Assembly (NCBI GenBank): GCA_938004375.1
Contig: CALKWH010000227.1
Span: forward strand, 1-35,186
DNA: 35,186 bases
Direction of reading: 5' to 3'
From: an uncultured Pseudomonadota bacterium
Lineage (GTDB): Bacteria > Myxococcota_A > Polyangia > HGW-17
The translations under genes and the position numbers were made by a program. The notes under the pieces were generated by a model that ran no database searches, was not told where the DNA came from, and saw only the letters and a list, made by a program, of their open reading frames with translations. Below are positions 20,278 through 33,042 of this stretch, in pieces. Numbering within the stretch: the first letter of the stretch is position 1; every line of letters begins with the position of its first letter.

Positions 20278-21231
20278 TCAAGGGGGGAGATCCCGGCGGC
20301 AGGCGAAGCGCGCCGCGCCCGCCGTGCGCAGCGGGGGCACGGCCTGCTGGCAGGCGTCCTCCCGGAAGGCGCACCGGGGCGCATAGGGGCAGCCCGACAC
20401 GCCGGGGCCGGGCAGGGCGGCCGCGCCCGCGGGGGGGAGCCGGCCCTCGGAGGCCTCGAGCAGGTCCCGGGTGTAGGGGTGGCGGGGCCGCAGGAAGACC
20501 TCGTCGGCGGGCCCGGCCTCCACGAGGCGGCCCGCGTAGAGCACGGCCGCGTGGTCGCACAGTTGGGAGACCAGGGGCAGGTCGTGGGAGATGAACACCA
20601 GGGTGAGCCCGGTCTGTTCATGCAGCTCGAGCAGGAGGGACAGGATCTGCCCCTGCACCGAGAGATCCAGGGCCGCCGTGGGTTCGTCGGCGATGAGCAC
20701 CTCGGGGGACAGGGTCATGGCCCGGGCGATGGCCAGGCGCTGGCGCTGACCGCCGGACATGCGGCGCGGGTGCGTCCCGAGGGCGGCGGGATCCAGCCCC
20801 ACCTGCTTCAGCACCTCCCGGCACCGCTCCAACCGCCGTCGTTCGTCGGTCCACCCATGGATGACGAGGGGTTCCTCCAGGACCCGCCGAGCGTCGAACC
20901 GCGGATCGAAGGACGCGATGGGGTCCTGGAACACCGGTTGGACGCGAGCGCGCAGCCGCCGCAGTTCGGTGCTCCCGAGGCCGGCGATCGGCCGGCCGAA
21001 CCAGCGGACGGTCCCCGCGTGCAGGGGGATCAGCCCGAGGAGCGCGCGCATCAGGGTGGACTTGCCGCTGCCGGACTCCCCGACGATGGCCCAGCGCCGG
21101 GCGCGCTCCATGACCAGGGAGACGTCATCGAGGGCGCAGCGGGCGGCGCCCGGAAAGCGGACGGTGCCGCCGGTGAGCTCCAGGGGCGGGGGTTCCTTCG
21201 ACGGGGACGCGGCGGCGGGGACCTCGGACAT
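20278..21231 (-). CDS. Oligopeptide/dipeptide-type ABC transporter ATP-binding protein
   Basis: This 317-residue ABC ATPase is of the OppF/DppF subfamily. It has Walker A GESGSGKST, the Q-loop VFQDPIASFDPRF, signature MSGGQRQRLAIARA, Walker B EVLIADEPTAALD and switch His in FISHDLPL. The C-terminal extension has RHPYTRDLL and the cysteine-bearing CPYAPRCAFREDACQ, the Fe-S/oligopeptide-type tail of this subfamily. It would power peptide or nickel import, but no permease, solute-binding protein or second ATPase is adjacent. The ATG at 21231 has no convincing Shine-Dalgarno, so the true start could be internal (the fold begins near residue 16). It is 55 bp upstream of nadA on the same strand. 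Confidence 0.9.
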   Translation of the reverse strand: MSEVPAAASPSKEPPPLELTGGTVRFPGAARCALDDVSLVMERARRWAIVGESGSGKSTLMRALLGLIPLHAGTVRWFGRPIAGLGSTELRRLRARVQPVFQDPIASFDPRFDARRVLEEPLVIHGWTDERRRLERCREVLKQVGLDPAALGTHPRRMSGGQRQRLAIARAMTLSPEVLIADEPTAALDLSVQGQILSLLLELHEQTGLTLVFISHDLPLVSQLCDHAAVLYAGRLVEAGPADEVFLRPRHPYTRDLLEASEGRLPPAGAAALPGPGVSGCPYAPRCAFREDACQQAVPPLRTAGAARFACRRDLPP

Positions 21232-21384
21232 GACGGCCGCAGTCTACGTCGTTTTCAACGTATTGCGAAAAAACCGCTTCCATAATCTTGATCATTTCCT
21301 CCTTTCCCGAATCATGCTAAAAACACTGGGCCAAATGGGGCGTGCATATTTTTGCTCGTGGGTCCTGACCTCTGGAGGAGTTCG
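21232..21384. promoter_or_regulatory. AT-rich divergent intergenic region
   Basis: This 153-bp stretch separates the divergent ABC ATPase and OmpA-family genes and is clearly more AT-rich than the rest of the window. A CATAAT (21281-21286, 5 of 6 to the -10 consensus) and an extended-type TGCTAAAAA (21315-21323) are present, but no -35 at proper spacing pairs with either. Promoters for one or both genes should lie here; I cannot place them exactly. Confidence 0.4.
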
Positions 21385-23439
21385 ATGTTGAAGTTTTCTT
21401 GCCTATCCAGCCTGCTGATCACCGTGCTTGGCTTCTCGTCCGTCTCCCACGCCGCAGAGCCGGCGACCCCCGCGCCTGCGAACGAGGTGGTCACGCCGTC
21501 CGATCCGATCACGCCCCTGTCCACCCTCGCGGCGGGCACCGGCCTCTTCCAGACCCTCACGGCTGTCCCCGGGACCCCCTGGACCTTCGGCCTCGCCCTC
21601 CACATGGAGTTCTTCCGGTACGGCGATTTCCTGGTGGCCGGCCAGCACGAGACGAACACCCGCACCGCCGGCGGCGTGCACTTCCACATGTTCTTTCCAC
21701 GGTCCGTCGAGGCTTTCGCCACCATTTATTCGATGAGCAATATCAACGAGCGTGATCATCTGGCCGGCACCGGGGAGCCTTCCACGCAGATGGCGCTCGG
21801 GGATCTGCTGTTCGGCGCCAAGTACAGCCACCGGGTCACCCCCTTCCTGAACGTCGGCGGCGCCCTGGTCGGCCGGCTGTACTCCGGCATGGCCGCCCCG
21901 GGTCCGGACCTGTCCGCCACCTCCGCCGGGCTCCACCTGCTCGCCTCCCTCGACGGTCGGGTCCTGGCCCCGAAGGCCCCGTTCCCCTTCCTCGTGCATC
22001 TGAACCTGGGGTACGTGTACGACGGCTCCTCCCGGCTGCTCGGCGACGTGCCGCGCTCGGCCGACTTCGCCACGGTCGAACCCCTGTACGGTTACATGGT
22101 CCAGGAGTTTGCCCTGGGCGTCGCCCAGAGCCGGGTCCAGTTCAGCCTCGGCTTCGAGGCGCCGCTGCGCGTGAAGGGGACCGTCGTCAGCCCGGTGGTG
22201 GAGTACGGCTTCCGGTTCTTCACCGACGGCGCCGACGACACGCTCATGGGCTGGCGCAACCGCGTGGCCGTGAACGGCAACGTGGCGGCCGACGACACCT
22301 TCTCCCAGAACCTGACGCTGGGCGTGCGCTGGCACGTGACCCGCCAGGTGGCGTTGTCCGCCGGCGTGGATCTGGCGCTGGACTATCCGGGTTTCGCCGT
22401 GGCGCCCCCGCAGCCGGTGTACAACGTGTTCGCCATGCTCTCCTACCAGGCCGCCGAGGCCCCGGGGCCCTGCGTCCCCGTGGTCCGCGAGGTGGTGAAA
22501 GAGGTCGACCGCACCCCCGTGGCCGAGCCCATGGGCACCATCCGCGGGAAGGTCACCGACGAGCAGGGCGCCCCGCTCGAGGGCGCCACCGTGGACTTCG
22601 TGGGCACGCAACTGCCGCGCCAGGCCACCGACGCCCAGGGCGGGTTCACCTCGATCCCGGTCAAGCCGGGCAACTACACCGTGCGCGTGGGCAAGAAGGA
22701 CTTCCACGACCAGGAGCTCCCGGTCGCCGTGGTGCGCACCGACGCCCCCACCGAGATCCAGATGAAGCTCAGGGCGAAAGGACCCGAGCAGTGCTCGGTC
22801 TACGTGTTCGTCAAGGACGATGCGGGTGCGCCGGTGGGCGGGACCCTCAAGGTGCAGGGCAAGACCATGGATGAGAAGGACGTGTCCCTGGACGCGACGC
22901 TGTCGGCCGAGGGCAAGGCCGAGGTGAAGGTGTTCCCTGGCGCGTACGAGATCGTCTACAGCGAGCCCGAGCATCTCACCCGCTCGGCCACCGTGACGCT
23001 GCCCAAGTGCACGGCCACCCCCGTCGAGTTGGTGGTCAAGAAGAAGCCCGCCAAGTCCACCGCCACCATCAACCGCAAGCAGCGGCAGATCACCATCACC
23101 GAGCGCATCCAGTTCAAGCTCGACAGCGCCGAGCTGCTCGCCGAGAGCCTGATCATCCTCGACGAGGTCGCCGCGCTGATGATCGACAACCCCGAGATCC
23201 TCGAGCTCGAGATCCAGGGCCACACCGACGACAAGGGCAAGGCCGACCACAACCTCAAGCTCAGTCAGGATCGCGCCGACGCCGTACGCGCCTACGTCAT
23301 CACCCAGGGCGTCAAGGGTGAACGCCTGACGGCCAAGGGGTACGGGCACACCAAGCCGCGGTTCGCCAACATCAGCACCCGGCTGCGGGAGAAGAACCGC
23401 CGCGTGGAGTTCAAGATCAACAAAATGAAGGAAGACTGA
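21385..23439 (+). CDS. OmpA-family outer membrane protein with regulatory-like beta-sandwich domains
   Basis: This 684-residue protein has a signal peptide (first 22-24 residues, ending SVSHA), a beta-barrel-like region with alternating aromatic strands (about 40-370), a short linker, a carboxypeptidase-regulatory-like domain starting GTIRGKVTDEQGAPLEGATV (about 382-455), a second similar beta-sandwich (about 470-550), and a C-terminal OmpA peptidoglycan-binding domain (about 565-684) with FKLDSAELLAES, EIQGHTDDKGKADHN and KGYGHTKPR. The conserved Asp and Arg that bind diaminopimelate lie in HTDD and LREKNRRVEF. It should tether the outer membrane to peptidoglycan. GGAGGAG precedes the ATG at 21385; earlier in-frame starts lack one. 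It heads a long co-directional row. Confidence 0.9.
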   Translation: MLKFSCLSSLLITVLGFSSVSHAAEPATPAPANEVVTPSDPITPLSTLAAGTGLFQTLTAVPGTPWTFGLALHMEFFRYGDFLVAGQHETNTRTAGGVHFHMFFPRSVEAFATIYSMSNINERDHLAGTGEPSTQMALGDLLFGAKYSHRVTPFLNVGGALVGRLYSGMAAPGPDLSATSAGLHLLASLDGRVLAPKAPFPFLVHLNLGYVYDGSSRLLGDVPRSADFATVEPLYGYMVQEFALGVAQSRVQFSLGFEAPLRVKGTVVSPVVEYGFRFFTDGADDTLMGWRNRVAVNGNVAADDTFSQNLTLGVRWHVTRQVALSAGVDLALDYPGFAVAPPQPVYNVFAMLSYQAAEAPGPCVPVVREVVKEVDRTPVAEPMGTIRGKVTDEQGAPLEGATVDFVGTQLPRQATDAQGGFTSIPVKPGNYTVRVGKKDFHDQELPVAVVRTDAPTEIQMKLRAKGPEQCSVYVFVKDDAGAPVGGTLKVQGKTMDEKDVSLDATLSAEGKAEVKVFPGAYEIVYSEPEHLTRSATVTLPKCTATPVELVVKKKPAKSTATINRKQRQITITERIQFKLDSAELLAESLIILDEVAALMIDNPEILELEIQGHTDDKGKADHNLKLSQDRADAVRAYVITQGVKGERLTAKGYGHTKPRFANISTRLREKNRRVEFKINKMKED

Positions 23440-23470
23440 GCGCGCTGCGACGCGCAGGAGGAATCGAAAC

Positions 23471-23821
23471 ATGGCGCAACAAAACGTAGTCATCAAGGCG
23501 TTACCGTGGCTGGCCACCATCTTCACGGCGGCCATCCTGCTCATCGCGACCGTCACGTTCGACGCCGCCCGCTGGGGGCAGGTGTGGCCGGCGATCCCGA
23601 TGGCCCTGTTCTTCTCGCTGGCGATCCAGGCGGCGGCCACCGACATGACGGGCTGGATGCCCGGGGCGGCCTTCCTCGGCACCCTGTTCCTCTTCTGGCT
23701 GCTGTCCAGCCTCGAGATCATGCCTTTCGGCAAGAGCTGGCCGTTCCTGCTGCTGGTCGCCGGGCTGCTGGTCGTGGTGGGCATCATGCTCTCGAAGAGC
23801 GCGAAGAACGCGAAGGAATAG
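23471..23821 (+). CDS. Small four-helix membrane protein
   Basis: This 116-residue protein has four hydrophobic segments, around LPWLATIFTAAILLIATVTF, WPAIPMALFFSLAIQAAA, AAFLGTLFLFWLLSSLEIM and WPFLLLVAGLLVVVGIML, and a basic tail KSAKNAKE. No family recognised. CAGGAGG lies about 8 bp before the ATG, and a short GC-rich hairpin (GCGCG/CGCGC) precedes that. It follows the OmpA-family gene by 31 bp and precedes a helical soluble protein by 22 bp. Small membrane proteins like this accompany SPFH or PspA-type proteins in other bacteria, which is why the context is notable, but function is unknown. Confidence 0.75.
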   Translation: MAQQNVVIKALPWLATIFTAAILLIATVTFDAARWGQVWPAIPMALFFSLAIQAAATDMTGWMPGAAFLGTLFLFWLLSSLEIMPFGKSWPFLLLVAGLLVVVGIMLSKSAKNAKE

Positions 23822-23843
23822 TCAAGCGAAAAAGGAGTTTCCC

Positions 23844-24329
23844 ATGGCAGTTTTGGACTACATCATCCCAGGATACAAGGGCTACCGTCAGCGCACCGAG
23901 AGCCGCGGCACCGACAGGGCCTTTCGCGACTACATGACCTCCAAGCTCAAAGAGTCCCACGACCTGCTCGAGCAGTTGAAGATGCAGATCTCCATGGACA
24001 TCTCCAAGATGGATCTGCTCACCGACGCCGAGCAGGCCACCGCGCTCCTGACCAAGGTGCGGGATCGGCTCCGCTGGGCGAACCAGGGGTTCGCGGGGAA
24101 CCTGTTCGGCAGCTCCGAGGAGACCGAGGCGATCCAGGCCGTGGAGAAGTTCGACCAGGAGCTCGAGGGGCTGCGCGCCAACGTCGCGACCCAGTTGCAG
24201 AACCTGGCCAACGCCGTGCTCTCGTCCGAGAACCCCAAGCCCCTGTTTTTCCAGTTGACGGGGGCGCTGCGGCAGATGGACAGCCACCTCAACGAGCGGG
24301 AGAACCTCATCCGCAAGTTGTTGCATTGA
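23844..24329 (+). CDS. Helical hypothetical protein (IIPGYKGY type)
   Basis: This 161-residue soluble protein begins MAVLDYIIPGYKGYRQRTES and is then nearly all helical, with two or three long amphipathic helices (about 25-60, 65-90, 105-160). The start, a short amphipathic segment ending in PGYKGY followed by a charged helix, is a pattern I associate with small proteins found near membrane-stress genes, but I cannot name a family with confidence. AGGAG precedes the ATG. It lies between the four-helix membrane protein and the SPFH protein, so the three genes are probably one functional group. The amphipathic N-terminus could dock it to the membrane; this is inference. Confidence 0.7.
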   Translation: MAVLDYIIPGYKGYRQRTESRGTDRAFRDYMTSKLKESHDLLEQLKMQISMDISKMDLLTDAEQATALLTKVRDRLRWANQGFAGNLFGSSEETEAIQAVEKFDQELEGLRANVATQLQNLANAVLSSENPKPLFFQLTGALRQMDSHLNERENLIRKLLH

Positions 24330-24434
24330 GGCGGGACCCTTTTCCACTTGCGCCGGCGGCGGCTTTGATGCTTTGATCCGTCGGCGGAGAAACCCAGACG
24401 ACGCGAGGCCGAGGTCCTCGGGTTGGAGGCAAGA

Positions 24435-25751
<1,317 letters not shown>

Positions 25752-25781
25752 TCCGATCTTCGTCACCCCTGGAGGCTTTCC

Positions 25782-26489
25782 ATGACCAGCGTTTCCAATC
25801 TCGTCGCTTCCGTCCTGTATCAGGGTGTGCCCATCGCCCAGAACCTCCCGTTCTCCGAGGTGTCCATGGAGAACGCCGTGGTGGAGATGCCGGATCCGCT
25901 CCCGGTGGCCACCGAGTTGGAGCTCCGGGTCGACCATCCCGACGGCCACGCGCTCGGCAGCGCCGTGGTGACCCGGGTCCGCGAGAGCCGCGGCGCCGGG
26001 GAACCGGGCAAGATGCACCTGAAGTGGGTGGAGTTCTCCGACGCCGACTTCACCCGGCTCTCGGGCTGGGTCCTGGCCCCGGGCGAGGTGGCGCCCCCGA
26101 AGCCCACGCACGAGGCGCCGCCGGCCGTCGAGGCACCGCCGGTGGAACAGGATCCGCCGGCCGTCGAGGCACCGCCGGCCGTCGAGGCACCGCCGGCCGT
26201 CGAGTCCGCGCCTGCGGAACCCGACCCGTCTCCCGAGGCAGGCGTGCCCGCTCCGGTCACCGACGAGGCCGAACGCACGATCCCCATCGATCCGGGCGCC
26301 ACGGCCGTGGACCTGGCCGCGATCCCGGATCCCCCTCACGAGGAAGCCCCCCCCGTTGAGACCGACACCATCGAAGGTGGCGAGGAGATCTCGGTGGTCG
26401 AAGAAGGTGGCGGGGACGCCGGCGGCGGGGACGCCGGCGGTGGCGAAGAAGGCGGGAAGAAGCGTCGTCGGCGCACCAAGAAGAAGTAA
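25782..26489 (+). CDS. PilZ-like protein with PPAVEA repeats and basic tail
   Basis: This 235-residue protein has a beta-rich N-terminal domain (about 5-100) with the overall layout of a PilZ domain: a first strand, NLPFSEVSMENAVVEM, a conserved-looking LELRVDHPDG, and HLKWVEFSDAD. The RxxxR and DxSxxG c-di-GMP motifs are not clear, so it may not bind the nucleotide. A Pro/Ala/Glu-rich linker with five PPAVEA-type units (about 113-142) follows, then an acidic stretch, a Gly-rich segment and a very basic end KKRRRRTKKK. GGAGG precedes the ATG. The tail could bind nucleic acid or anionic lipid. It lies 30 bp after the SPFH gene and 6 bp before the LD-carboxypeptidase gene. Confidence 0.65.
   Translation: MTSVSNLVASVLYQGVPIAQNLPFSEVSMENAVVEMPDPLPVATELELRVDHPDGHALGSAVVTRVRESRGAGEPGKMHLKWVEFSDADFTRLSGWVLAPGEVAPPKPTHEAPPAVEAPPVEQDPPAVEAPPAVEAPPAVESAPAEPDPSPEAGVPAPVTDEAERTIPIDPGATAVDLAAIPDPPHEEAPPVETDTIEGGEEISVVEEGGGDAGGGDAGGGEEGGKKRRRRTKKK
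26118..26207 (+). repeat. 18-bp tandem repeat encoding PPAVEA
   Basis: Five consecutive 18-bp units start at 26118, 26136, 26154, 26172 and 26190. Units 1, 3 and 4 are identical, unit 2 is diverged (PPVEQD) and unit 5 ends differently. The perfect identity of the third and fourth units suggests recent expansion. Confidence 0.9.
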
Positions 26490-26495
26490 CTCCCG

Positions 26496-27365
26496 ATGCC
26501 CCTTCTGCCCGGCGTCGTCTTTCCCTCCAGCCCACCGTCTCCCGAAGCCCTCGACGCCGGGCTGCGCCTGCTCCCTCCCCACCGGATTTTCAAGCCCGAA
26601 CCCGGATCCTGGCCCTTCCTGGCCGGCGACGACGACGGCCGCACCGGGAGCGTGTGTGCTGCCCTTCGCGACCCGGAGGTGGGGATCCTCGTCGCCGCCC
26701 GCGGCGGCCATGGGGCCCTGCGCCTGGACCGGGATCGCGTGCTCGCCACCCTGCGCAAGCACCCGAAGCCCCTCGTGGGCTTCTCGGACGTCACCGCGCT
26801 GCATTTCCTTTGGCAGGTCGCCGGGGTTCCCTCGATCTCGGGGCCCAACGTGACCCAACTGCCCCTGCTCCCGCCGGACCATCTGGACCGCTTCCTTCGG
26901 CTCTTCGAGGGGCGGCTGCCGCTTCTGGACGTCGGCTTGACCCTGCACGGGGACGCCCCCGAAGCGGTGATCGAGGGTCCCCTGGCCGGCGGCAACCTGA
27001 CGGTGGCAGCCTCGGCCGCGGGCACGCCCTGGAGCACCCCGTTCGCCGGACGCATCGTCCTGCTCGAGGAAGTCCGTGAGGCCCCGTACCGGTTGGACCG
27101 CCTCCTCTGGCAGCTCTTCGCGGCCACCGATCTGGCCCGGGCGGCGGCTTTGGTGTTCGGCGAGTTCACCGAGTGTCCCGCGTTCGAGCTCGAGCTCCTG
27201 CTGGCCACCTGCCGCCGGTTCGCGCCCGGCCTCCCGCTGGCCTCCGGCTTCCCCGCCGGGCATGGTCCGCGCAACTTCGCCTTCACCTGCGGGGCCGTCG
27301 CCCGCCTGGACCTTCGCGCCGGTCGGCTGACGCAGCCCGAGAGCCGGTTCCCCGGGCCGCCATGA
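26496..27365 (+). CDS. ldcA: LD-carboxypeptidase (peptidase family S66)
   Basis: This 289-residue serine peptidase is of the LdcA/MccF family, which removes the terminal D-alanine from muropeptide tetrapeptides during peptidoglycan recycling; some members instead inactivate microcin C-like compounds. VAARGGHGALRL and GFSDVTALHF (nucleophile Ser in GFSD), LLEEVREAPYRLDRLLWQL (catalytic Glu) and GFPAGHGPRNFAF (catalytic His) are all present in the right order. It has no signal peptide, as expected for the cytoplasmic recycling enzyme. The N-terminus is shorter than usual: the family's first strand-turn is reduced to VVFPSSPPSPEAL. Its stop overlaps the start of the CHAT gene (ATGA, 27362-27365), so the two are coupled. 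Confidence 0.88.
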   Translation: MPLLPGVVFPSSPPSPEALDAGLRLLPPHRIFKPEPGSWPFLAGDDDGRTGSVCAALRDPEVGILVAARGGHGALRLDRDRVLATLRKHPKPLVGFSDVTALHFLWQVAGVPSISGPNVTQLPLLPPDHLDRFLRLFEGRLPLLDVGLTLHGDAPEAVIEGPLAGGNLTVAASAAGTPWSTPFAGRIVLLEEVREAPYRLDRLLWQLFAATDLARAAALVFGEFTECPAFELELLLATCRRFAPGLPLASGFPAGHGPRNFAFTCGAVARLDLRAGRLTQPESRFPGPP

Positions 27366-28912
27366 GGCTCCAGGTCCAACTCCTCGACGGGCGACTGCAC
27401 TTCACCCTCCCGGGGACCGGAGAGGGGCCGTGGAGCTCCGACTGGCCCGAGGCGCGCGCGCGCACCCTGTGCGGTGAGCTGCGCTCCCTCGCCCACCGCA
27501 AGGTCCATGGCGACCCGGGCCCCGCCACCGCCGGCCAGTTCGAGGCCCTGTCCCGCGCGCTCTCCGGCCTGATCCTGCCTTCGGAGGTGGCCGCCCGGCT
27601 GCGGGGTGCCGACGGTCTCCTGGCCCTGCTGGTCGATCCCGCGCTGCAGGAGCTCCCTTGGGAGTGGCTGCACGACGGGGACGACTTCTGGTGCAGGCGC
27701 TTCTCCATCGGACGGGTGGACCGTCCCCGCGCGGCTCCCTCCCTGCGAGAACCCGTGCGGCCCGTGCGCATGCTCGTCGTGGTCTCGGACCCCGACCGGG
27801 ATCTGCCAGGGGCCCTGCCCGAGGCGCGTCGCCTGGTGCGGGCGCTGGACCGCGAGCAGGCCTACGCCGCCCGGCTGATGGTGAACCCCACCATCGAGGA
27901 GTTGATCAAGAACTTCAACCAGAACGCCGTGGTGCACTACGTGGGACACATGCGCTCGGTGTCGGGACCGGACGGTCTGCAGCCGGCCTGGCAACTGAAG
28001 AACGGCACCTTCGGCGTACCCGAGATGGCGGCCTGCTTCTTCGGCGGCTGCCGCGTGCGGCTGGTGTACTCCAACGCGTGCCCCGGGCTCGCCATGGACC
28101 CGGCCGCCGCCGCCATCTGGCCCCGCGCGTTGCGGGGAGCGGGCGTGCAGGCGGTGATCTCGACGCTCATGGACGTTCCGGACCGCTCGGCCGTCGAGAT
28201 GTCGGCCGGCTTCTACGAGGATCTGGCCTCGGGCAAGAGCCTGGGCGAGGTGCTGACCCTGGCCCGGGAGCGGGCTCGCACCCGCCTCGACCCCGGCGAC
28301 CTCACCTGGATGCTCCACGCGCTCCACGGGGACCCGGACCAGGTGCTGCTGCCGGTACGCTCCACCCTGGAGAACGGCGCCCGCCTGCGGGTCTCCGGGC
28401 CGATCCCCTACAAGGCGCCGCTGGCCCCCGCGCCCCCTGTGCGGCGCGCCTGGCGCCGGTTCGAACTCGCCTTGTTCTTCGCCCTCGTGCTTCTGACCGC
28501 CGGTCTACTCACCCGCCCTCTGTGGGACCGGCAGGAGGCCTTGAGGCCGCCGCCCCTGGGCGCCGGGATCGAGTCGTTCTCGGGCCGGATCCTGTTCACC
28601 GGCTTCGAGGGGGGAGAGGTCCCCTTCGACACCGACACTCTGGCCGCCGAGCAGTGCTTCATCCGCTATCTCACGGCCATGCCCGGCGTGCGGCTGCAGG
28701 ATGGCCGCGAGCCTGTTGGAACTTCGCCCACTCCCTACATGGAAATTGGCGGCCGCGTGGTCGCAGTCGGCGGGGAGGCCCGGATCCTGCTCATGGTGAA
28801 ACGAACCTCGGACCGCGTGGTGCTCTATGCCGATGACTTTGCCCTGCCGCTCTCGGACGAGACGGCCTGCGACCGGCTCGCGGACTGGATCCGGCGGCGT
28901 TTCGAGTTGTGA
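27362..28912 (+). CDS. Membrane-anchored CHAT-domain protease-like protein
   Basis: This 516-residue protein has an N-terminal region (1-95), a CHAT caspase-like domain (about 95-335), a basic stretch and one transmembrane helix (about 367-384, ELALFFALVLLTAGLL) and a C-terminal domain of about 130 residues. CHAT markers are LPWEWLHD (98-104), the catalytic His in VVHYVGHMR (His196, or less likely His192), catalytic Cys240 in VRLVYSNACPG, and LRGAGVQAVISTLMDVPD. The layout puts the protease in the cytoplasm and the C-terminal domain in the periplasm. CHAT proteases act as effectors in bacterial defence or stress cascades; target unknown. No TPR repeats are fused, unlike many CHAT proteins. 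It overlaps the LD-carboxypeptidase gene by 4 bp. Confidence 0.88.
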   Translation: MRLQVQLLDGRLHFTLPGTGEGPWSSDWPEARARTLCGELRSLAHRKVHGDPGPATAGQFEALSRALSGLILPSEVAARLRGADGLLALLVDPALQELPWEWLHDGDDFWCRRFSIGRVDRPRAAPSLREPVRPVRMLVVVSDPDRDLPGALPEARRLVRALDREQAYAARLMVNPTIEELIKNFNQNAVVHYVGHMRSVSGPDGLQPAWQLKNGTFGVPEMAACFFGGCRVRLVYSNACPGLAMDPAAAAIWPRALRGAGVQAVISTLMDVPDRSAVEMSAGFYEDLASGKSLGEVLTLARERARTRLDPGDLTWMLHALHGDPDQVLLPVRSTLENGARLRVSGPIPYKAPLAPAPPVRRAWRRFELALFFALVLLTAGLLTRPLWDRQEALRPPPLGAGIESFSGRILFTGFEGGEVPFDTDTLAAEQCFIRYLTAMPGVRLQDGREPVGTSPTPYMEIGGRVVAVGGEARILLMVKRTSDRVVLYADDFALPLSDETACDRLADWIRRRFEL

Positions 28913-28991
28913 CCTCGGACCCCAAGAAAGCCCTTGCAAATCTCTGGTTTTGTTCTAAGTTCGCGGCGACCGTGGGACCCTCCCTCTCCCG

Positions 28992-29804
28992 ATGAGGGTC
29001 GCGGGTCTGCCGGTCGCTCACTTTCCCATGCTCGCGTGGCCGCACCCCTTCTCCTATTTCCCCGTCACGGACTCGACCAGTGCCGTCCTCAAGGCGTGGG
29101 TTCAGGACGACCGGTCCCTCCCCGGCGCCGTGGCCGCCGGCGAGCAGACCGCAGGACGGGGGCGGGGGGACAACGTGTGGCGCTCGCCGTCGGGGGGGTT
29201 GTACCTCTCGGTGGCCATCCCCGTGGCCGATCCGCCGCTTTTGCACCTGATCGGCCCGTCCATCGGGGTCGCGGTGGCCCGCTGGCTGCAGGAGCGCTTC
29301 GGGGTCGGGGTCCGGCTCAAGTGGCCCAACGACTGGCTGATCGAAGATCGCAAGCTCGGCGGCCTGCTCCTGGAGCTGGTGCGGGCGCCCCGGGGCCAAC
29401 TGGCGGTCATCGCCGGCCTGGGCCTGAACGCGCTGGCCACGCCCCAGGTGCCCGATCGCCGCGCCTTTTTGCCCACTTCTCTCGCGGAGTGGACCGACGT
29501 GACCGACCTGCAGTTGGAGCCGCTGGCCCGGGAGCTCGCGGTCGTGGTGCTCGAAGCCGGCCAGGTGGGCGCCGCCCGGGAGCCCGTGCTGCGCGCGGCC
29601 ATGAAGGACCTGAGTTGCACGCTGGGCCGGCCCGTGTCGGTGCTCGTGCCCGGCGGCGAGCTCGTGAGCGGGCTGGCCGTGGACTTCGGTCCGGACTTCT
29701 CGCTGTGCGTGCGGACCGGCGACCGGGTCGTGCGGGTGCAGGCGGGTGATTGTTTCCATGAGATGGTGACCGGCTCCCCGGAGCCGACGAACGAAGGAGG
29801 CTGA
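28992..29804 (+). CDS. birA: Biotin-protein ligase (without DNA-binding domain)
   Basis: This 270-residue ligase activates biotin with ATP and attaches it to a carrier-protein lysine. The biotin-adenylate loop reads AGRGRGDNVWRSPSGGLYLS, followed by LKWPNDWLIEDRKLGGLLLE and VIAGLGLNAL. The C-terminal SH3-like domain carries RPVSVLVPGG and VQAGD. There is no N-terminal winged helix, so it is monofunctional and not a repressor. ATG 28992 or the Met at 29028 could be the start; neither has a good ribosome site. A weak TTGCAA (28934-28939) with TCTAAG 14 bp later may be its promoter. It is directly followed by oadG, oadA and oadB, whose product OadA is its obvious substrate. Confidence 0.92.
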   Translation: MRVAGLPVAHFPMLAWPHPFSYFPVTDSTSAVLKAWVQDDRSLPGAVAAGEQTAGRGRGDNVWRSPSGGLYLSVAIPVADPPLLHLIGPSIGVAVARWLQERFGVGVRLKWPNDWLIEDRKLGGLLLELVRAPRGQLAVIAGLGLNALATPQVPDRRAFLPTSLAEWTDVTDLQLEPLARELAVVVLEAGQVGAAREPVLRAAMKDLSCTLGRPVSVLVPGGELVSGLAVDFGPDFSLCVRTGDRVVRVQAGDCFHEMVTGSPEPTNEGG

Positions 29805-29807
29805 ACG

Positions 29808-30086
29808 GTGTCACAGGCATTCGTACTCACTGGTTTGGGAATGAGCATCGTCTTCATCGTGCTCGCGCTGACCTACGGCAGCATCGTGGTGCTGGGTTTC
29901 ATGGAGCGGCGCTTCGCGATCCCTGAGTCGGTCGCCACCGCCCCGGTCTTCTCCCCCGTCGCGCCCGCGGACACCGGGCTCACCCCCGAGGAGGAGGCCG
30001 CCATCCACGCCGCCATCTCCCACCACACCGGCATGGCCCCCGAGACATTTCAAACCCGGATTACCCCGGTCAAGAAGGAGTCGTAA
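29808..30086 (+). CDS. oadG: Sodium-pump decarboxylase gamma subunit (OadG family)
   Basis: This 92-residue protein has a single N-terminal transmembrane helix (about residues 5-31, LTGLGMSIVFIVLALTYGSI and following) and a polar cytoplasmic tail with EEEAAIHAAISHHTG and a C-terminal TRITPVKKES. This is the pattern of OadG, which holds the carboxyltransferase subunit to the membrane subunit. The start is GTG at 29808, three bases after the birA stop, with GGAGG about 8 bp upstream inside the birA end. It sits 3 bp before oadA. Confidence 0.88.
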   Translation: MSQAFVLTGLGMSIVFIVLALTYGSIVVLGFMERRFAIPESVATAPVFSPVAPADTGLTPEEEAAIHAAISHHTGMAPETFQTRITPVKKES

Positions 30087-30089
30087 ATC

Positions 30090-31871
30090 ATGGTGAAGAT
30101 TACCGAGACCATCCTGCGGGACGCCCACCAGTCCCTGATCGCCACCCGCCTGCGCCTCGAGGACATGCTCCCCGCCCTCGAGCTGCTGGACAACCTGGGC
30201 TACCACAGCCTGGAGGTGTGGGGCGGCGCCACGTTCGATTCCTGCATGCGGTTCCTCGCCGAGGATCCCTGGGAGCGGCTGCGGACGATCCGCCGTGCCG
30301 TGAAGAAGACCAAGCTTCAGATGCTGCTGCGCGGCCAGAACCTGGTCGGCTACCGGCACTACGCCGACGACGTGGTGGACCGCTTCGTCGAGCTCGCCGC
30401 GAAGAACGGCATCGACATCTTCCGCATCTTCGACGCGCTCAACGACACCCGCAACATGGAGCAGGCCATCCGCGCCGCCGTGAAGACGGGCAAGCACGTC
30501 CAGGGCACGATCTCGTACACGCTGTCGCCGGTGCACACCGAGGACGCGTTCGTGAAGTTCGCCGGCGAGCTCAAGGCGCTGGGGTGCCACTCGATCTGCA
30601 TCAAGGACATGGCCGGCCTGCTGGATCCGGCCGCCTGCACCAGCCTGGTGTCGCGCCTGAAGAAGGAGGTCGCCCTCCCCGTGCAGGTGCACACCCACTG
30701 CACCTCGGGCCTGGCCCAGATGACCTACTACGCCGCCGCCGCCGCCGGCGCGGACGTGGTGGACTGCGCGCTGTCGCCGTTCTCCGGCGGCACCTCCCAG
30801 CCCCCCACCGAGAGCGTGGTGTTCGGCTTCGCCGGCACCCCCCACGACACCGGCATGGACCCCGCCGCGTTCAAGCCGCTGACCGCCGTGTTCAAGGACG
30901 TCCGCAAGAAGTATGACTCCATGGTCAGCCCGATCTCCGAGCGGGTGGACGTGGACGTGCTGATTTACCAGATCCCGGGCGGCATGCTCTCGAACCTGGT
31001 CAGCCAGCTCGAGAAGCAGAAGAAGCTGGACCGCTACGAGGACGTGCTCCTCGAGGTGCCCCGCGTGCGCACCGACATGGGCTACCCGCCCCTGGTGACC
31101 CCCACGAGCCAGATCGTGGGCACCCAGGCGGTGATGAACGTCATCGCCGGCGAGCGCTACAAGATGATCACCAAGGAGACCAAGGAATACGTGCGCGGCA
31201 TGTACGGGCGCACCCCGGCCCCCATCTCCGCGGAGATCCGCAAGATGATCATCGGCGACGAGCCGGTGGTCGACGGCCGCCCGGGGGATCACCTCAAGCC
31301 CGAGCTGCCCGAGATCCGCACGAAGTACAAAGACCTGATCAAGAAGCCCGAGGACGAAATATCCCTCGCGCTCTATCCCGAGGTCGCCGCCAAGCTGCTC
31401 TCGGGCACGGCCGAGGCCGAGCCCATGCCGGGCGTCAAGGCTCCCGTGGCATCTTTGCCGGCCCCTGCGCCCGCCGCCCCGTCTCCCGCGCCCGCGGCGG
31501 CCGGTCCCGGTCGCTACCAGGTGCAGGTCAACGGCCGCGTGTTCACCGTCGACGTGGCGCCCCTGGCCGCGGGGGCCGCGCCCATGGCCATGCCCGTGAC
31601 CACGGCGCCAGTCGCCCCGGCGTCCTCGCCGGCCCCGGTCGCGGCCGGTCCCGCCGGTGGGCGTCCGCTGCCCAGCCCGCTGCAGGGCACGGTCTTCAAG
31701 ATCCTCGTCAAGGTCGGCGACCGCGTGGAGCCCAACCAGAAGGTCCTGATCCTCGAGGCGATGAAGATGGAGAACGAGATCACCGCGCCTTTTGGCGGGG
31801 TGGTCCGTCAGATCCTGGTCAAGGAGGGACAGGGTGTGGACTCCGACGCGCCCCTGATGGTGCTCGAATAG
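30090..31871 (+). CDS. oadA: Oxaloacetate decarboxylase alpha subunit (carboxyltransferase plus biotin carrier)
   Basis: This 593-residue subunit transfers the carboxyl of oxaloacetate to its own biotin. It has a TIM-barrel carboxyltransferase domain at the N-terminus ([55 protein letters not shown] with metal-binding His residues), a conserved carboxylase domain (about 300-460), a Pro/Ala linker (about 450-530, with one short beta segment [16 protein letters not shown] inside) and a biotinyl domain with EAMKMEN, biotinylated at about Lys559. AGGAG precedes the ATG. The segment inside the linker looks like a partial or extra lipoyl-like strand pair seen in other OadA proteins. Pyruvate or methylmalonyl carboxyltransferases are less likely because oadG and oadB flank it. 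Confidence 0.95.
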
Positions 31872-31881
31872 GAGGTCTGCC

Positions 31882-33042
31882 ATGCATGGCGTCGAACAAG
31901 TCATCCAGTCCATGGGCTTCATGAACCTCACGTGGGGTCATGTGGCCATGCTGAGCGTCGCCCTGATCCTGCTGTACCTGGGCATCGTGCGCGGCTTCGA
32001 GCCGCTGTTGCTGATCCCCATCGCCATGGGCGTCATTCTCACGAACATCCCCCTCGCCGACGTCATGGCCCACCCGGACCTGACCAAGCCCTTCGTGCCA
32101 TCGGAGCTCAACTCCTGGGGCGTGGTGTACGTCGTCTACTTCTGGGGCATCAAGTCCGGGTTGTTCCCACTGCTCATTTTCATGGGCGTGGGCGCCATGA
32201 CCGACTTCGGGCCGCTGATCGCCAACCCCAAGACGATCTTCCTGGGCGCGGCCGCCCAGTTCGGCATCTTCGGCACCCTCATCGGCGCGGTGGCCCTGGG
32301 CTTCCCCATGAACGAGGCGGCCTCCATCGGCATCATCGGCGGCGCCGACGGCCCCACGGCCATCTTCACCACCACCAAGCTGGCCCCGCACCTGTTGGGT
32401 CCCATCGCGGTGGCCGCGTACTCCTACATGGCGCTGGTGCCCATCATCCAGCCCCCGATCATGCGCCTTTTGACCACGAAGAAGGAGCGCGCGGTCCGCA
32501 TGGAGCAGCTGCGCACGGTGAGCAAGCGGGCCAAGATCATCTTCCCGATCATGGTCACCCTGGTCACCATCGTCCTGATCCCGGACGCCGCCCCTTTGGT
32601 GGGCATGCTCATGTTCGGAAACCTGGTGAAGGAGGCCGGCGTGGTCGACCGCCTGTCCAAGACCGCCGCCAACGAGTTGATCAACATCGTCACCATCCTG
32701 CTGGGCGTGTGCGTGGGCGCCACCATGAGCGCGGAGACGTTCATCAACGTGAAGACGATCAAGATCGTCGTCCTCGGGCTCATCGCCTTCTCCGTCGGCA
32801 CTGCCGCGGGGCTGCTCTTCGGCAAGCTCATGTGCTGGTGGACCGGCGGAAAGGTGAACCCGCTGATCGGCTCCGCCGGTGTCTCCGCGGTGCCCATGGC
32901 CGCCCGCGTCTCCCAGAAGGTCGGCCGCGAGACCGACCCCAACAACTACCTGCTGATGCACGCCATGGGTCCCAACGTGGCCGGTGTGCTCGGCTCGGCC
33001 ATCGCCGCGGGCGTGCTCATCGCGGTGGTGGGCGGCGGTTGA
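31882..33042 (+). CDS. oadB: Sodium-pumping decarboxylase beta subunit
   Basis: This 386-residue integral membrane protein decarboxylates carboxy-biotin and couples it to outward sodium transport. It has about nine to eleven hydrophobic segments, the conserved [10 protein letters not shown] (Asp156 corresponds to the essential Asp203 of Klebsiella OadB) and [20 protein letters not shown] with the functional Ser and Asn residues of the second conserved region. The end reads [14 protein letters not shown] precedes the ATG 10 bp after oadA. With birA, oadG and oadA it completes a full sodium-translocating decarboxylase module. Confidence 0.95.

Follow-up and report, generated by a model that had tools for sequence, protein, structure and literature searches.

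A conserved gene row in Myxococcota unites SPFH/zinc-ribbon, LD-carboxypeptidase and membrane CHAT protein genes that also occur as separate modules

The 35,186-nucleotide stretch at positions 1-35,186 of contig CALKWH010000227.1 (assembly GCA_938004375.1), hereafter the window, comes from an uncultured Pseudomonadota bacterium of the GTDB lineage Myxococcota_A; Polyangia; HGW-17. It carries a row of six genes for a four-helix membrane protein (tm4), a small helical protein (gyk), an SPFH protein with zinc ribbons, a PilZ-like protein with a basic tail (PilZ′), an LD-carboxypeptidase (LdcA) and a CHAT protein with one transmembrane (TM) helix (CHAT-TM). Both the row and its conservation are confirmed, yet its genes do not form an obligate unit: three modules (gyk-SPFH, PilZ′-LdcA and CHAT-TM) also exist apart. 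We give an even chance to reading the row as an envelope-homeostasis cluster that arose when three older modules came together: a platform, the PilZ′-LdcA pair and a gated CHAT-TM. Titles and abstract beginnings in the literature yielded no description of this gene set.

Layout and conservation of the row

The six open reading frames (ORFs) are all open, lie on the same strand and reproduce the coordinates of the initial annotation (Table 1), with gaps of 22, 105, 30, 6 and -4 bp. Their GC content at third codon positions ranges from 0.85 to 0.95.

Table 1. Features of the row and of its surroundings in the window.
Feature	Position	Strand	Evidence or remark
Dipeptide/oligopeptide ABC ATPase gene	20281-21231	-	best PRK11308, 258 bits, below 408 cut-off
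OmpA-like outer-membrane protein	21352..23439	+	PF00691 1.3e-17, PF13620 3.8e-17
tm4, four-helix membrane protein	23471..23821	+	four hydrophobic segments
gyk, small four-helix-bundle protein	23844..24329	+	AlphaFold2 mean pLDDT 87
Conserved non-coding element	24330..24434	+	between gyk and SPFH
SPFH (Band_7_1, YdjI type)	24435..25751	+	PF13421 9.8e-47, DZR 3.2e-17
PilZ′	25782..26489	+	alignments A7, A9; reciprocal profile matches on PilZ domains
LdcA, S66 LD-carboxypeptidase	26496..27365	+	PF17676 1.3e-25, PF02016 4e-16
CHAT-TM	27362..28912	+	PF12770 73.4 bits, cut-off 24
birA, biotin-protein ligase	28992..29804	+	TIGR00121 110.9 bits, cut-off 83.1; travels with the row
oadG-oadA-oadB, sodium-pumping decarboxylase genes	29808..33042	+	behind birA

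All seven close relatives (L001-L007) keep the order OmpA-tm4-gyk-SPFH, and PilZ′ follows SPFH in the six whose contig extends that far. Adjacency of ldcA and CHAT is found in six of the seven (G001-G006). These two genes overlap by 4 bp in the window and in five of these six genomes, G005 having a 15-bp gap. Downstream of CHAT, birA-oadG-oadA is present in G001-G004 and is not present in G005, and the G006 contig stops after CHAT. The limits 23471-28912 are thus too narrow, since the OmpA-like gene upstream and birA-oadG-oadA downstream accompany the row in several relatives.

The GC content is 0.40-0.65 at the relatives' loci and 69% in the window, and synteny across this range makes a chance gene order unlikely. 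Gene order is still kept in L003, where identity falls to 25% for CHAT and 35% for LdcA. Together, the spread in GC content and this low CHAT identity argue for an old arrangement and against a recent copy. The closest named relatives are Deltaproteobacteria/Myxococcota metagenome-assembled genomes (MAGs), e.g. HGW-Deltaproteobacteria-22.

The putative platform genes

The tm4 protein has four hydrophobic segments, in line with its first description as a four-helix membrane protein. Its match to LiaF-TM (E-value (E) 0.013, 16.8 bits) stays under the Pfam cut-off of 27, as do those of its relatives to LiaI-LiaF-like_TM1 (L012, 2.7e-5; L009, 0.003; best 24.6 bits, same cut-off). It is weakly LiaI/LiaF-TM-like and a possible membrane anchor. 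The gyk protein carries an N-terminal PGYKGYR motif which is invariant in a 42-row alignment, gives a single match per genome in 12 of 12 genomes and resembles the NCBIfam LIMLP_15305 family weakly (28.8 bits against 210). In the SPFH protein, a Gly/Pro-rich linker is followed by six CxxC motifs at residues 357-429, which form the three C4 zinc ribbons that had been proposed. PF13421 gives one match per genome in all 21 relatives.

A profile scan with gyk returned 12 loci, each with SPFH directly downstream. The pair is adjacent in all 19 genomes examined, while the remaining row genes vary by lineage. Six distant gyk relatives also adjoin SPFH, with 24-29% identity in the four that align. CHAT-TM has no match at E 1e-10 in five of these six genomes, and G302 has weak CHAT matches only, like G011 and G012.

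Two side observations concern the neighbours of this pair. In five of the distant loci (L041, L043, L044, L045, L046), the gyk-SPFH pair is preceded by a gene for a protein of ~550 residues that has two sites resembling zinc ribbons, the ribbon having been recognised by eye in G356. The four of these proteins tested (L041, L043, L044, L046) have no Pfam family over the cut-off and no hydrophobic segment. A PF01553 acyltransferase gene comes after the tm4-gyk-SPFH core at L008, L009 and L010, and in L009 a diacylglycerol kinase gene precedes the core.

The gap between gyk and SPFH is 105 bp long in the window, in L001 and in L002, and its sequence is 76.2% identical to that of L002. For comparison with the same locus, three other gaps reach 42-50% identity, and the third codon positions of the genes ompA, tm4, gyk and SPFH reach 65-70%. 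Because the 105-bp element is more conserved than either, SPFH-PilZ′-LdcA-CHAT may have its own start, and the element is a possible internal promoter or leader. It contains no sigma-70-like site and no terminator-like site; no sigma-70-like site was found across 21200-29850 and no Rfam family matched in the window.

PilZ′ and LdcA

PilZ′ consists of a divergent PilZ domain, an acidic Pro-rich linker and a conserved basic tail, KKRRRRTKKK. The earlier description as PilZ-like holds in a qualified form: there is no direct match to PF07238, and a divergent PilZ domain is supported by an eight-row PilZ′ profile. Across six genomes, this profile has 14 matches at E up to 0.01 that lie outside the row, and PF07238 matches 13 of these places as well. 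In PilZ domains, cyclic di-GMP is bound through the motifs RxxxR and D/NxSxxG; neither is visible by eye in the eight rows of alignment A9. The basic tail is present in all six complete proteins counted, and also in L111 and L112.

The assignment of the following gene as an LD-carboxypeptidase is upheld by matches to both S66 domains. LdcA has no hydrophobic segment and aligns to 1zrs over residues 7-272, where the motifs GFSD, LEEV..APYR and GHG match and supply the Ser, Glu and His which we take to be the catalytic triad of 1zrs. Against the PRK11253 equivalog it scores 103 bits (cut-off 378). LdcA is the sole S66C match found in 18 of 19 genomes, all seven close relatives included, and none was found in G145. 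Since no second S66C gene turned up in any of these seven, LdcA is probably a housekeeping enzyme and would serve muropeptide recycling.

The CHAT-TM protein

The last protein is, as first proposed, a membrane-bound CHAT protein, with an N-terminal CHAT domain, one TM helix (about 366-384) and a C-terminal part beyond. The CHAT domain is modelled with a separase-like fold, and the closest solved folds include separase, Craspase/Csx29 and SAVED-CHAT. A His196/Cys240 dyad is invariant in alignments A2, A4 and A5 and aligns with separase and SAVED-CHAT; the truncated L004 row of alignment A3 was left out of this assessment. A pattern check recovers the GH motif in each of 19 sequences; the Cys motif is recovered in 17 of them, the exceptions being G387 and G401. 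Alignment A1 holds 25 of 39 homologues plus the window. The CHAT profile also places TLMDVPDR opposite LWDVTDK of separase, a stretch close to the pocket that accepts a basic P1 residue.

Foldseek searches with the whole CHAT-TM model return PelC (1.6e-4), TolB (3.0e-3), GNA1162 (3.6e-3) and CsgG (4.3e-3), the matches coming without residue ranges. The C-terminal part is probably a periplasmic PelC/TolB-N-like domain, and the CHAT part is predicted to be cytoplasmic. The CHAT-TM family is compact, with a constant peptidase part and a variable, probably periplasmic part.

Neighbours of CHAT-TM across the class

Of 289 genomes of the class, 25 have a CHAT-TM match at E 1e-30, and in 19 the E-value is below 1e-80. 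In these 19, the neighbour of CHAT-TM is ldcA (6), dapL (4), folK (7) or an Rrf2-type regulator gene (1), and is unclear in one; ldcA, dapL or folK thus account for 17. CHAT overlaps dapL by 4 bp in G008, G010 and G425, and all four DapL proteins pass the PRK09276 cut-off. A link of the CHAT gene with diaminopimelate (DAP)/peptidoglycan genes is supported by the ldcA and dapL neighbours. On the CHAT tree, from which G004 (partial, one in-frame stop), G413 (partial), G431, P0003 and P0004 are omitted, the neighbour contexts cluster with the minimum possible number of changes, 3.

The folK genes precede CHAT-TM in a housekeeping context in seven genomes (L094, L096-L101), and all seven match HPPK over the cut-off. 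In G387 and G390, plsY (PF02660) is nearby, and G387, G401 and G413 carry a DapL gene no more than about 5 kb from folK-CHAT.

All eleven gyk-bearing genomes of the class sample lie among the 19 CHAT-TM genomes, for which shared ancestry may account. The sample includes the ten entry genomes G001-G010, and its frequencies and Fisher value (3e-15) are corrected neither for this nor for phylogeny. The large class searches scored up to 5 or 12 first-look candidates per genome, so that absences in them are soft.

Modules found apart

The arrangement differs in several lineages. G008 and G009 have the core plus dapL-CHAT, with LdcA not adjoining PilZ′; G009 also has a truncated PilZ′-like gene at another place. 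In G010, PilZ′-LdcA form a separate pair with a 4-bp overlap, gyk-SPFH lies on another contig and CHAT is the gene that overlaps dapL. G425, found through the CHAT search, likewise holds gyk-SPFH, PilZ′-LdcA and dapL-CHAT as three separate units. The row of G007 ends at LdcA, and CHAT stands elsewhere, behind an Rrf2-type regulator. At that place (L034:10721-13278), a PilZ-domain gene (PF07238, 1.1e-9) and the regulator gene directly precede CHAT-TM.

The initial annotation suggested that this row may be one system. Its conserved order in close relatives is supported; a single dedicated system is not, as the modules occur apart.

Flanking genes

Upstream, the OmpA-like gene, overlooked by the initial annotation, ends 31 bp before tm4. 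Its product has a CarboxypepD_reg domain, a C-terminal OmpA domain and, by eye, a signal peptide; translation more probably begins at the ATG at 21385. The ABC ATPase gene is divergent from the OmpA gene, adjoins it in L001 and L002 and lies one gene further in L003 and L006. Of the five relatives in which this region is visible, only L007 does not have it there. The gene could be part of murein-peptide uptake.

Downstream, the gaps before birA, oadG, oadA and oadB are 79, 3, 3 and 10 bp. OadA scores 810 bits with PRK09282 (cut-off 402) and 754.4 with TIGR01108, just below 756.5, and OadB 525.2 with TIGR01109 (cut-off 190.6). The oadG gene is assigned by position only.

Comparison with known systems

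In Bacillus subtilis, YdjI depends on YdjG/H, which are membrane proteins, and in turn recruits PspA; without YdjG/H, cell-wall synthesis is mislocalised (PMC8581546). Band-7 and zinc-ribbon proteins are described as partners in phage shock protein (PSP) operons, and the Bacillus protein is reported to have a zinc ribbon (PMC11237479). Like pspA-ydjGHI, the row encodes a PF13421 SPFH protein carrying zinc ribbons at its C-terminus, together with a membrane protein and a helical partner. By analogy with this system, we read tm4-gyk-SPFH as a membrane platform. However, the window row lacks a PspA gene, gyk is a small four-helix bundle, tm4 has no TPM or zinc-ribbon match in Pfam, and LdcA and CHAT are added. 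The LiaI-LiaH pair of B. subtilis is similar in that a small multi-TM protein stands beside a small helical cytoplasmic protein, and the tm4 relatives are weakly LiaI-LiaF-like. The differences are that tm4 misses the Pfam cut-off, that Pfam does not identify gyk as LiaH/PspA and that no LiaFSR genes are among the row families.

In contrast to separase, Csx29/Craspase and SAVED-CHAT, the window CHAT-TM is short, has no TPR or SAVED match and bears a TM helix and a C-terminal domain which appears PelC/TolB-N-like. DdvA is, by the PDB titles of 8rot/8rw5, a transmembrane anti-sigma factor; the window protein has no anti-sigma domain, and its CHAT part is predicted to face the cytoplasm. LdcA resembles PA5198 (1zrs/1zl0) in the aligned Ser, Glu and His motifs, whereas its gene sits between PilZ′ and CHAT.

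Proposed mechanism and alternatives

The envelope-homeostasis reading starts from observed gene content, order and conservation, together with predicted folds and aligned catalytic residues; anchoring, topology, partnership and gating are inferred. Within it, tm4 would be the inner-membrane anchor of the SPFH/zinc-ribbon oligomer. The gyk protein would be a small peripheral partner of SPFH, roughly in the place of PspA/LiaH in the Bacillus YdjI and LiaI systems. LdcA would act as the muropeptide-recycling LD-carboxypeptidase of the cell. PilZ′, with its folded domain, acidic spacer and basic tail, would be a tethering or regulatory partner and may hold LdcA at the membrane or the platform. CHAT-TM would be a cytoplasmic separase-like cysteine peptidase on a single TM helix, whose PelC/TolB-N-like domain might read the periplasm and thereby control when a cytoplasmic protein is cleaved. 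That the three modules are linked is suggested by their union in one lineage and by genomes that carry all of them at separate places.

A more far-reaching proposal is speculative and, in our estimate, improbable. Here the SPFH platform would act through CHAT-TM, a caspase-like membrane protease family whose periplasmic domains are exchangeable, as its proteolytic output. CHAT-TM would be wired to DAP/peptidoglycan metabolism through LdcA or DapL, so that periplasmic or muropeptide signals trigger cutting of a cytoplasmic regulator such as PilZ′. No description of a bacterial envelope-to-protease pathway of this kind was found in the literature, judged by titles and abstract beginnings.

Several observations weigh against the envelope-homeostasis reading. 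The related genomes show the scattering that had been named beforehand as evidence against a system: the modules are separate in four of the eleven gyk-bearing class genomes (G008, G009, G010, G425) and CHAT is apart in a fifth (G007). Ten of these eleven entered the sample through gyk, and they are possibly one clade, in which case shared descent may explain the co-occurrence. CHAT-TM stands behind folK in 7 of 19 genomes, and eight of the 19, including all seven folK-linked ones, are not listed with gyk. The ldcA-linked rows do not form one clade on the CHAT tree (two changes, although with the long branches a single origin is possible), and DapL falls under the stricter TIGR03540 equivalog cut-off in all four genomes (510-540 vs 593). 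For CHAT-TM itself, the PelC-like match was placed on residues 409-514 of the model by inference, and the positive-inside signal is weak (4 Lys/Arg before the TM helix, 3 after). Lastly, gyk has no convincing PDB match and no Pfam match to PspA. PF04012 has no match at E 1e-5 in eight of the eleven gyk-bearing class genomes (G001, G002, G003, G005-G009), where gaps in the MAGs are possible; it does match in G004, G010 and G425, on contigs other than that of gyk. As three of eleven gyk-bearing genomes also carry PspA, gyk is no strict PspA replacement.

Alternatively, the row may be a neighbourhood only. The SPFH module, the LdcA pair, CHAT-TM and birA-oadGAB would then be unrelated housekeeping units, adjacent in one lineage and inherited together with at most one shared transcript, and CHAT-TM would have another role. 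We consider this possible, if rather unlikely. The switching partners of CHAT-TM, the clustering of these contexts on its tree, the sole S66C gene and the biotin ligase and sodium pump behind the row all agree with it. However, the order is held despite the divergence from L003 and across 40 to 69% GC, CHAT overlaps ldcA and, separately, dapL by 4 bp, and G010 and G425 hold all three modules though unlinked.

In line with the suggestion of the initial annotation, the row may be an envelope-damage protease switch, in which the platform and muropeptide processing directly gate CHAT; CHAT would then cut the basic-tailed PilZ′ or another operon product. The ldcA/CHAT overlap is consistent with this, as is the putative basic-P1 stretch of the CHAT domain in a row that encodes a protein with a conserved Lys/Arg run. 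Yet the basic tail also occurs where CHAT lies outside the row (G007, G010, G425) and is thus not specific to the arrangement, and LdcA appears to be housekeeping; we therefore regard this switch as improbable. Craspase/Csx29 and SAVED-CHAT among the closest solved folds might suggest that CHAT is the effector of a system for conflict or abortive infection; this is very improbable, as PADLOC gives no convincing defence match for the six row proteins (only a weak LmuA match of gyk, 0.0082), a Pfam search finds no mobile-element family among them and housekeeping genes surround the row in the relatives read.

Significance

The row points to a Myxococcota version of the SPFH/zinc-ribbon platform without PspA beside it and with a defined small partner, gyk. 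Both this version and the compact CHAT family are small enough for testing. Should the protease turn out to be tied to the state of the cell wall, this would illustrate how caspase-like enzymes of bacteria work outside immunity.

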